The notes under the pieces are model-generated. The model saw only the letters and a list, made by a program, of their open reading frames with translations, searched no databases and had not been told where the DNA came from. 64,000 nucleotides of DNA from Lysobacter sp. (lineage in GTDB: Bacteria > Pseudomonadota > Gammaproteobacteria > Xanthomonadales > Xanthomonadaceae), in contig DAHUXS010000013.1 of NCBI GenBank assembly GCA_027306995.1, positions 372,001-436,000 of the forward strand. The letters run 5' to 3'. Shown here one piece after another: positions 46,005-48,563 of the stretch. Every line of letters begins with the position of its first letter. The first letter of the stretch is position 1. Made by a program: the position numbers and the translations under genes.

Positions 46005-46499
46005 TTATTCGGCGATGACATAGCCGTCGGCATTGGCGCGCTTCGGCTTGTCGCCGACGCGCACGCAGACCTGGTCGCCGCACATGGTGATCGCACCGCT
46101 GCGGGTTGCTTCGAGGATGCCTTGGGCGAATTCCGCGCGTTTCAATTCCTGCTGGCTGCGCCAGACCATCCACGCGCTGCCAACGGCTGCGATCGCGGCA
46201 GCGACGACCAGCGCCAGCGATGCGATGGTCGCGAAGCGGCGTTGCGCGGAGCGCGAAGCAGCGATGTCGGCATGCAACGCCTGCATCGCGCTGCGGGTTT
46301 CATCGCGGATAGCGCTGATCGAGGAGGCCGAGAGATCGCGTCCCTGCTCGGTGAGCGTGACCGCAGCCGATTCCACGGCATGCGCATTCGCTTCGGTGAT
46401 GTCGGCGACGCGATCGGCGCGTTGTTCCAGGAGGTCGGTGAAAGCGGCCAATCGCAGAGCGAGTTCCTGCAAGTCGTTGCTGTCCATGTGCGCGTTCAT
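46005..46499 (-). CDS. single-pass membrane protein of an effector-immunity operon
   Basis: A 164-residue protein. Residues 1-88 are a long amphipathic, probably coiled-coil helix (LEQRADRVADITEANAHAV, SISAIRDETRSAMQALHADI), residues about 91-113 form one membrane helix, and the C-terminal domain (about 114-164) has a CGDQVC pair that could form a disulphide. I do not recognise a named family. The start overlaps the lipase stop (ATGA at 46496-46499), so it is translated with it. It may help secretion, act as a second immunity factor, or be a chaperone; none is proven. An alternative start is Met5. Confidence 0.6.
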   Translation of the reverse strand: MNAHMDSNDLQELALRLAAFTDLLEQRADRVADITEANAHAVESAAVTLTEQGRDLSASSISAIRDETRSAMQALHADIAASRSAQRRFATIASLALVVAAAIAAVGSAWMVWRSQQELKRAEFAQGILEATRSGAITMCGDQVCVRVGDKPKRANADGYVIAE

Positions 46500-47902
46500 C
46501 GATGCAGCACCGGTGCGGCTTGCTGTTGCGCCTGTTGCGATTGCTGTTGCGCCAATTGCGCGGTCAGTTCCGATTCGCGCTGTTGCGTGTTGTAGTCGCG
46601 ACCCTGTTGCAACCAATCCTGTGCAGCGTTGCCATTGAGCCATGCCGAACTTGCGGCGCGCATGTCCGACGCATCGCCACGCAGTGCGGCATCGCTCATC
46701 GATCGGAAGATGTCGTTGTTGGATGTCGCCTGTGACTTCACTTGATCGGGCATCGTTGGCGGCGCCTGCTGCTCCGACATCCGGATCGGCCGGTAGTCGA
46801 CTTGCCTGGCCAATTCGGGATCGACCGGCGCCTTGTGCGTGCAGTCGGATAGCGGCTGCGCGACCCGGCATTGCGAATCGCCGCCGAGCTGGTCGGTTTC
46901 GCCCCGCTGGTGGTGCTGGTCGTAGTAGCGCGTGGTGTAGAGCACCATGTGCTCTTCGGAATGATAGATCTGGTATTTCGCGGGATCCTGCGGCACGGCC
47001 TGCGGTTTCAGGAAGTCGCGATCCGACAGACTGTTGAGGAAGTCCACGCCCATGTTGGCGTTGAGTACGCCGAGGCCGTTCTGGGTATAGGTATCGCCGA
47101 TATTGCTGTGCGCGCCAGGCACCGTGATGCTGAGGAAGCGACTGTCCTCGGACAATCCGTGTGGCAGCAGCTGATCGCCCTTGAACTGGTCGCGATGATC
47201 GGTGGAGAGGATCTGGAACGCACCCACCGTGGATGGCGCAAGGCGGCGGTCGAACTCGGTGTTGTTGGTCGAGACCGGATCGAACAGCATCGCGGCTTGC
47301 AGTGTTTTGCCGGGGGGGACCAGTTGTTCTCCGGAGTATTTGATCGAGGTGATGATGCCGTATTTGTCCTGATGGACAATGGCACCGACTGGATCGCGGA
47401 TACCGCGTTCTTCGACCATCCGATCCAACGCGGCTACTTCTTCCGCACCACGACTGAAACCGACACCGGCGACGCGGATTCGGGCTTCGGGGTCCTGATC
47501 AATCCAGATTTTGGCTTGTTTGCACAGCTTGAAATAGGCAGTCTCGACACGCTCGTCGAAGCTGTAGGCGCGCCAACCATCGACAGCGCGCGGAAGAAAG
47601 CCGTCCTGAGTTCCGATGCCCTCTTCGTATCCGCTGACGATGCGCTGATTTTTTGCCTTGACGACCTGATCATGGATCTTGGCGACGGCGCTCCAATGTT
47701 CGGGGGCATCCTTGCGCATGCTGTTGCCGGTGCCATCGAGCGAGGCGATGTACAGGCGCTCATGCGGATTGTCGGCGTGCAGCAGGACCGGCACCTGCAA
47801 TTCAGTCAGTTGATTGCGCGCTGCTTCGTACTGTTGTAGGTCAGCCGTGGTGGCCTGGTCCTTGTGGACCTGGGCGTCATTTTTGCCAAACACACTCCCC
47901 AT
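46496..47902 (-). CDS. DUF2235/Tle1-like phospholipase, putative antibacterial secreted effector
   Basis: A 468-residue alpha/beta hydrolase of the DUF2235 family. SLDGTGNSMRKD (about residues 54-65) is the family's opening motif; the nucleophile elbow is GVGFSRG with Ser150; LFDPV (about 207-211) probably holds the acid; VPGAHSNIGD (about 261-270) holds His265. The same fold is used by Tle1-type phospholipase effectors. There is no signal peptide. A C-terminal region (about 385-468) is helical and ends in a glutamine-rich tail (QLAQQQSQQAQQQ) then PVLHR, resembling tails of Xanthomonadales type IV-secreted killing proteins. The exported upstream protein and the membrane protein downstream fit an effector-immunity operon. 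GAGGGGGG precedes the start. Confidence 0.8.
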   Translation of the reverse strand: MGSVFGKNDAQVHKDQATTADLQQYEAARNQLTELQVPVLLHADNPHERLYIASLDGTGNSMRKDAPEHWSAVAKIHDQVVKAKNQRIVSGYEEGIGTQDGFLPRAVDGWRAYSFDERVETAYFKLCKQAKIWIDQDPEARIRVAGVGFSRGAEEVAALDRMVEERGIRDPVGAIVHQDKYGIITSIKYSGEQLVPPGKTLQAAMLFDPVSTNNTEFDRRLAPSTVGAFQILSTDHRDQFKGDQLLPHGLSEDSRFLSITVPGAHSNIGDTYTQNGLGVLNANMGVDFLNSLSDRDFLKPQAVPQDPAKYQIYHSEEHMVLYTTRYYDQHHQRGETDQLGGDSQCRVAQPLSDCTHKAPVDPELARQVDYRPIRMSEQQAPPTMPDQVKSQATSNNDIFRSMSDAALRGDASDMRAASSAWLNGNAAQDWLQQGRDYNTQQRESELTAQLAQQQSQQAQQQAAPVLHR

Positions 47903-47921
47903 CTCGTCCCCCCTCAGGAAC

Positions 47922-48563
47922 TCAATACGTCTTGCTGTAGACCTTGATCAGATCGTTGCGGAAATTGCTGTTCTTGTTGTTCGGATTTCGCAAGTGTTTG
48001 GTTGGGACGAAGGCCAGCATGTAGACATTGACAGTGCGGTCATCGACCTCAAGCGCGATCGTGGGATTGCCGATGCTCACGCCCTCCGCCACTTCTTCCC
48101 GCGGCACGTTGTGGCGGATCAGCCGGTCCTTGAAGATCTCGGCCATGTCGACGGTGGCGTGATGCGAACTTCCATCCTTCGCTATCCAGTCCAGCACTGC
48201 CGGTGGCGGGAAATTGGCGATCGACAATTCTGCGGACTGAAAAAAATTGGCATGGTCGTAGCCATAGGACTGCCATGATCGCTGCGGTTCGTCCCAGTGG
48301 TGCGGAAAACCCGAATAGACGATCTTGCAGTCGCGGGTGTTGAAGCACTGCGCAGAAAAGTCATGCCGCAAAAACCGGAGCGGCCAATCCTTGACGGTAT
48401 TGGTGAAATCCCCCGACGGCGATGCCGCGCCGGAAGAGGTGTGGTCGTTTGGTGCGGTCATGGCGGAAGAACACCCCTGTGTGGCCAGCAGGAACGCGGC
48501 GATGGCGGACAGACTGCCCCGGCGGCCTGAATGCGATATGTGACGGCTGTCGCGATTCCCCAT
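47922..48563 (-). CDS. small exported, probable lipoprotein; putative immunity protein for the lipase
   Basis: A 213-residue protein with a basic N-terminus and hydrophobic segment (about residues 17-29) ending LLATQGCSS, a lipobox-like site with Thr at -3 (weak). The mature part has two cysteines in QCFNTRDC that may pair, and strongly patterned motifs (NFPPPAVLDWIAKDGS, VDMAEIFKDRLI, IALEVDDRTVNVYM, ending VYSKTY). I do not know a named family. It ends 19 bases before the lipase start and is first in the operon. A periplasmic lipoprotein beside a DUF2235 lipase is the usual place for an immunity protein; that role is inferred. Start at 48563 is chosen because the longer frame runs into the divergent VIT gene. 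Confidence 0.66.
   Translation of the reverse strand: MGNRDSRHISHSGRRGSLSAIAAFLLATQGCSSAMTAPNDHTSSGAASPSGDFTNTVKDWPLRFLRHDFSAQCFNTRDCKIVYSGFPHHWDEPQRSWQSYGYDHANFFQSAELSIANFPPPAVLDWIAKDGSSHHATVDMAEIFKDRLIRHNVPREEVAEGVSIGNPTIALEVDDRTVNVYMLAFVPTKHLRNPNNKNSNFRNDLIKVYSKTY

Follow-up and report, generated by a model that had tools for sequence, protein, structure and literature searches.

As far as the available text of PMC6536674 goes, effectors of the type IV secretion system (T4SS) of Xanthomonadales (X-T4SS effectors, X-Tfes) are paired with inhibitors (X-Tfis) encoded upstream, mostly lipoproteins for periplasmic targets, and DUF2235 is listed among the X-Tfe domains. All X-Tfes contain XVIPCD, according to the accessible part of PMC10933484. 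DUF2235 effectors of the type VI secretion system (T6SS) pair with DUF3304 proteins in the excerpts available from PMC12421835 and PMC13055248. Furthermore, the accessible portions of PMC10432156 and PMC12624023 describe T4SS substrate adaptors, namely IcmS/IcmW of the Dot/Icm system and CagF/CagZ of the Cag system, and Oka et al. (2022), as cited in the available text of PMC10432156, proposed a yet unidentified X-T4SS adaptor that contacts the C-terminal region of the effector outside XVIPCD. The present analysis concerns a three-gene operon at positions 46005..48563 of a 64,000-nucleotide stretch of a Lysobacter sp. genome (assembly GCA_027306995.1, contig DAHUXS010000013.1, positions 372,001 to 436,000 of the forward strand; hereafter the window), which encodes a lipoprotein-like protein (P0001), a DUF2235/Tle1-like lipase (P0002) and a single-pass membrane protein (P0003), the last belonging to a family that we call P3.

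The operon resembles the X-Tfe/X-Tfi pairs in that the toxin gene lies downstream of a lipoprotein gene, the genome has a virB cluster, and 32 lipases of the same family bear XVIPCD. Unlike those pairs, the lipase of the window lacks XVIPCD and has a short C-terminal tail of another kind, and an additional membrane protein family is linked to this tail and to virD4; we class the module as a variant of the X-T4SS effector/immunity pairs that stands outside the XVIPCD class. We observed that the genes are conserved and paired, that the tail is modular and that P3 is linked to both the tail and virD4, and on this basis we favour, with fair though far from full confidence, the explanation that the operon is a weapon of a bacteria-killing T4SS, consisting of a lipase toxin, an immunity lipoprotein, a modular tail and a P3 adaptor to the coupling protein VirD4. 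A shade less firmly, we propose a second substrate-loading route in bacteria-killing T4SSs, in which a mobile C-terminal tail of about 70 to 120 residues, carried by lipases, peptidoglycan hydrolases and lysozymes, would be recognised by P3 as a dedicated adaptor; the P3 gene accompanies that of the cargo where the genome uses XVIPCD, and adjoins virD4 in lineages without any XVIPCD.

The three genes all lie on the minus strand, in the layout first described: the gene of P0001 (213 residues, 47922..48563) is followed after a 19-base gap (47903-47921) by that of P0002 (468 residues, 46496..47902), which overlaps the gene of P0003 (164 residues, 46005..46499) by the four bases ATGA (46496-46499). 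The coordinates thus bear out the three-gene operon, with its gap and overlap, of the first-pass annotation. The arrangement is more than chance, since in relatives the lipoprotein stays with the lipase and the membrane protein with a single kind of lipase. PF09994 (T6SS_Tle1-like_cat) of Pfam matched P0002 at E 4e-13, and the Tle1-like alpha/beta-hydrolase domain covers approximately residues 45-345 (46868..47770). When 41 short-tail lipases, P0002 among them, were aligned, catalytic Ser150 (47453..47455) and His265 (47108..47110), both already noticed in the annotation, were invariant in 41/41, as was Asp208 (47279..47281), whose invariance suggests that it is the third residue of the triad. 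P0002 thus has the Tle1-like catalytic domain with a Ser-Asp-His triad that is typical of Tle1-type enzymes, and it may be a toxin with phospholipase activity. The annotation could not name the families of the other two proteins, and neither could we: P0001 and P0003 had no family at or above the curated cut-off in Pfam or NCBIfam, and their best PADLOC match was no better than E 0.02. Pfam found no DUF3304, VgrG or DUF4123 among the three genes.

The lipase, the lipoprotein and P0003 were used to search 395 genomes of the same family, Xanthomonadaceae, a check on joint inheritance that the annotation had recommended. The lipase matched in 124 genomes and the lipoprotein in 117; the lipoprotein was present in 116 of the 124 lipase-positive genomes and in 1 of the 271 lipase-negative ones. 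Eight genomes thus had the lipase without the lipoprotein, and the opposite case, which the annotation had regarded as damaging to its proposal, was seen in just one of the 117 lipoprotein-positive genomes (G064). Among 136 lipase loci, taken from among the matches listed (so that, for example, G226:C16 and G214:C1:1849055 are not included), 133 contained a lipoprotein homologue, whatever the lipase tail, and the three without it were loci of XVIPCD lipases. At 23 of these 133 loci the immunity-type lipoprotein was present in two to four copies, for example at L182 (G317). The lipobox residues Gly30-Cys31 (48471..48476) were invariant in all 45 aligned sequences, a permissive lipobox pattern fitted 45/45, and the predicted structure of P0001 has a beta-rich domain after approximately residue 60. 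P0001 and its 44 homologues matched no Pfam family at E up to 0.01, and hence not DUF3304, and a fold search gave the family no name. The co-occurrence of lipoprotein and lipase is the pattern of an immunity protein, and P0001, whose gene with its lipobox stands 19 bases upstream of the lipase gene as a putative immunity gene of the X-Tfi kind, is probably the immunity protein of P0002 and would inhibit it. The reading as an effector-immunity module, as proposed in the annotation, is therefore well supported.

The lipases of the 136 loci fell into 32 with XVIPCD, 84 with the short tail, 15 without class and 5 truncated, the XVIPCD profile having been built from the places matched by PF20410 and other XVIPCD segments; L240 and L246 may be one gene taken twice, and nine lipase loci with long open reading frames (ORFs) were fetched later and stand outside the 136. 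XVIPCD and the short tail occupy the same position after the catalytic part of the lipase family. The short tail measures 72 to 156 residues and comprises a helical core, with a consensus of approximately RL..AA..GD..A.........S..GQAWLQ.G, and a variable, often Gln-rich end. In P0002 it corresponds to residues 379-468 (46499..46768), a candidate T4SS delivery signal that stands where relatives have XVIPCD; it has a Gln-rich end and was modelled as three helices (395-407, 411-422 and 425-461) with a block-mean predicted local distance difference test score (pLDDT) of 49-87. PF20410 did not match P0002 at E up to 1, and the XVIPCD profile reached only E 8.5 on its tail, so that P0002 lacks the C-terminal domain of the X-Tfes. 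The two profiles were separate, with one double match in 116 classed loci; in that lipase (L235, G191:C12:300905-302257) the tail matched the XVIPCD profile at E 8e-9 and the short-tail profile at E 1e-10, and it may carry both.

A profile made from 35 lipase tails (A2) matched 58 of 80 genomes that had been chosen by lipase type and were searched for P3, for VirD4 (PF02534) and, in two sets covering all 80, for XVIPCD (PF20410); the window genome (G000) was matched at E 9e-25, the tail of P0002 being itself among the profile seeds. Of the 150 A2 matches listed, 61 were on a lipase and 89 on other ORFs. Twenty loci were fetched because A2 had matched non-lipase ORFs in them, and a tail-core profile, which omits the Gln-rich end, matched 21 of their 1154 ORFs at E 0.03 or better, always 14-47 residues from the C-terminus; with reversed ORFs as a control, the best E was 0.97 for the tail core and 0.13 for the full tail profile. 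One of the 21 was a DUF2235 lipase (L291), and in the other 20 any match to the lipase profile was confined to the tail. When ten tailed proteins were examined with Pfam, three had Lipase_3 (one of them below cut-off), two had SLT, M23 or peptidoglycan-binding domains, one had phage lysozyme with RTX repeats, one had DUF2235 and three had no match. No ORF of the P0001 family was found in the 20 tailed-toxin loci, so that the lipoprotein-like gene upstream differs from one toxin to another.

P0003 has a transmembrane segment at residues 87-114 (46158..46241), followed by a conserved Cys140...Cys145 pair (46065..46082) that is presumably periplasmic. Among 27 aligned members of P3, Cys140 and Tyr160 were invariant and Cys145 was present in at least 90%, and 25 of the 27 had one transmembrane segment. 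Of the 84 short-tail lipases among the 136 loci, 42 have a P3 gene immediately downstream, compared with none of the 52 other lipases; six of the 42 were assigned by hand where the script had over-extended the start of an ORF upstream. Six genomes (G106, G289, G143, G214, G229 and G347) have lipases of both kinds, and in 6/6 the P3 gene stands by the short-tail lipase, not by the XVIPCD lipase, a pattern within genomes that controls for ancestry; G191, which has the double-match tail and a short-tail lipase without P3, was left out of this count. The place of P3 in the class that we propose, beside the lipase or virD4, is seen in the window itself, where the gene of P0003 overlaps that of the lipase. 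In the 80 genomes, tail and P3 were both matched in 56, the tail only in two (G178 and G244), P3 only in three (G279, G026 and G197) and neither in 19. Of the 89 listed non-lipase tail matches, 29 were followed by a P3 gene and 27 had a P3-linked virD4 no more than 40 kb away, and of the 64 P0003-positive genomes among the 395, the lipase was also present in 55. The annotation held that the membrane protein, as an accessory part, could be new; it is more than an accessory, since the P3 family follows the effector tail and VirD4.

Where P3 is paired with virD4, it lies directly upstream on the same strand, with 399-479 bases between the profile matches. This pair was found in 28 of 34 genomes whose lipase has no P3 beside it (33 with short-tail lipases, and G141, whose tail has no class), in none of the 20 that form the group with P3 next to the lipase (19 with that arrangement, and G130, which has P3 genes elsewhere and not by its short-tail lipase) and in none of 26 genomes without a classified short-tail lipase (among them G035, G066 and G195 without any classed lipase tail, and several others without class); these tallies, like those of the neighbours of tail matches, omit second fragments of split P3 matches, some weak matches and extra VirD4 rows in multi-copy genomes. 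The six exceptions among the 34 were G253, G178, G244 and G135, which had no VirD4 match, and G123 and G031. Among the 70 VirD4-positive genomes, the pair was present in 23/23 without XVIPCD compared to 5/47 with XVIPCD, and those five carry only one to four XVIPCD matches. Locus L303 (G276) has, in this order, virD4, P3 and virB7 to virB6, then a lipoprotein-like gene with a tailed Lipase_3 toxin, and after these a second lipoprotein-like gene with a tailed M23/SLT toxin, and L301 and L302 (G352) follow the same scheme. In a VirD4 tree, nine P3-type proteins and six from XVIPCD-using genomes were split with a branch support of 1.0; the two types differ most at residues 1-120 (the membrane part), at approximately 241-320 and at the C-terminus, where contacts with a partner could be expected. 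At L319, L320 and L321, a stand-alone XVIPCD protein of 165-181 residues and a protein of 92-96 residues are encoded just upstream of virD4, the place that P3 has in the variant systems; these genomes carry 18 to 25 XVIPCD matches.

Delivery is probably via a bacteria-killing VirB/VirD4-type T4SS rather than a T6SS. In the window genome, VirB10 (PF03743) lies inside a virB cluster (L109, contig C1:58001-78000), in which Pfam also confirmed VirB8, VirB4 and the ATPase VirB11. We take the order of the cluster to be virB7-B8-B9-B10-B11-B1-B2-B3-B4-B5-B6, the names without Pfam confirmation being presumed from gene order and appearance; its VirB7 has 148 residues. After the cluster comes a 595-residue effector with XVIPCD, M23 and peptidoglycan-binding domains, and in another genome (G358) the homologues of lipoprotein, lipase and membrane protein come after a VirB cluster and an XVIPCD effector. 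VipB had no match in the window genome, in a search that did match the E. coli control, and was found in 15 of the 80 genomes. With no VipB in the genome and no DUF3304, VgrG or DUF4123 in the trio, the Tle1/T6SS setting implied in the annotation is not supported.

Considering these results, we propose the following scheme. P0002 would hydrolyse the membrane lipids of the rival cell, and P0001 would neutralise the lipase and so protect the producer. The last 90 residues of the lipase would serve as a modular delivery signal in place of XVIPCD, and P3 would capture this tail at the inner membrane and hand it to VirD4. As the lipoprotein accompanies the toxin, and P3 accompanies tail and coupling protein alike, an inner-membrane adaptor is the simplest reading of P3. 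Judged from sequence, the scheme would entail enzyme activity, inhibition, physical binding, secretion and killing.

The main rival to the adaptor, which we consider unlikely, is that P3 is a second protector, binding tailed toxins and keeping them harmless at the inner membrane of the donor. A membrane protein encoded with the toxin, downstream and sometimes overlapping, would suit this role; however, in several genomes P3 adjoins virD4, and tailed toxins that have no P3 gene next to them occur in that T4SS locus or at other sites, P3 tracks the tail and not the toxin domain, which is what the lipoprotein tracks, and there is no evident reason for a pure protector to adjoin the coupling protein. 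Somewhat less probable again is a tail that is a degenerate XVIPCD read directly by VirD4, with P3 unrelated to it and, for example, regulating VirD4. The shared position on the lipase and the Gln-rich ending that many lipases of both kinds have are consistent with such an origin, but P0002 gave no PF20410 match even at the permissive limit, the profiles overlap at L235 alone, and P3 is absent beside all 32 XVIPCD lipases.

The available text of PMC10989847 describes effector homologues that lack XVIPCD, which can be toxic and have a neighbour that protects, and the tailed lipases might likewise be 'atypical' and non-secreted, serving defence as proposed for Le1637. We regard this as improbable, since a non-secreted role would not account for the conservation of the tail on toxins of several types or for its link to virD4; moreover, Le1638, the other neighbour tested, is a gamma-glutamyltranspeptidase according to the accessible part of PMC10989847 and is not P3-like. 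A classical T6SS Tle1 effector with a Tli lipoprotein, already disfavoured, is to our mind the least credible and very unlikely, although the DUF2235/Tle1 fold would fit and the available excerpts of PMC12421835 and PMC13055248 pair such T6SS effectors with immunity proteins. Unlike the Tle1/TleB and Tli systems, the window genome has no VipB, which just 15 of the 80 genomes have, P0001 has neither DUF3304, the type of immunity partner found in X. oryzae and S. maltophilia, nor another Pfam name, and the trio is without VgrG or DUF4123; furthermore, lipases of the same family carry XVIPCD, and the trio of G358 stands behind a VirB cluster.

Several observations weigh against the T4SS adaptor scheme. 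VirD4 (PF02534) was not found in the 22 contigs of the window genome, in spite of the virB7-to-virB6 locus with its XVIPCD effector, so that this T4SS may lack a part or virD4 may fall in a gap of the assembly. Short-tail lipases are retained in G178, G244 and G253, where neither VirD4 nor XVIPCD was matched. Of the 89 listed non-lipase tail matches, 33 were near neither P3 nor a P3-linked virD4; nine P0003-positive genomes of the 395 had no lipase match; and 7 of the 26 comparison genomes had P3 matches away from virD4. Two of the nine long lipase ORFs (L304 and L305) have P3 in frame or directly behind, and their end was recognised by neither tail profile. Weak P3-like genes beside weak XVIPCD ORFs were seen at G387:C4:212844-213724 and G162:C15:108069-108921, which are possible hybrids of the two signal types. 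In addition, the genomes are related, so the statistics are not independent, and some loci were fetched because the tail or P3 profile had matched, so counts within them are not unbiased.

If P3 acts as proposed, it would be similar to IcmS/IcmW and CagF/CagZ as a small protein that brings substrates to a VirD4-type coupling protein. In contrast to these, P3 is a single-pass membrane protein of no named family, is tied to one type of tail, and is encoded with the cargo or with virD4. It also differs from the adaptor proposed by Oka et al. (2022) in being linked to the short tail and not to XVIPCD effectors; the tail and the virD4-linked P3 together offer a concrete candidate for an adaptor of that sort, acting in a variant system. 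The effectors Le1637 and XAC2247 are similar in being XVIPCD-less effector homologues with protective neighbours, and differ in that the accessible descriptions mention no conserved replacement tail or membrane partner for them. In the literature on XVIPCD and X-T4SS effectors, as far as its available text extends and with most subscription papers and preprints outside the search, we found no account of such a tail or membrane partner. The proposal, if true, would explain how genomes without XVIPCD can arm a T4SS, searches for tail and P3 could reveal further effector-immunity pairs, and the substrate choice of VirD4 would become testable by removal of the tail or P3.

Single loci also differed in the arrangement of tail, toxin and P3. 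In G330, the lipase (L304, 1699-6909) and a short tail (L297, 447-5141) are each in one uninterrupted frame with a P3 domain, and P3 is a separate ORF at the related loci L305 and L298. At L066 (G248:C139, 719-1995), which seems to be the chromosomal site that the operon has in the window, the flanking genes being similar, the tail is retained with 82% and P3 with 86% identity, and a different short sequence stands in place of the lipoprotein and the catalytic part of the lipase, which may reflect a toxin swap, a deletion or an assembly artefact of this metagenome-assembled genome.

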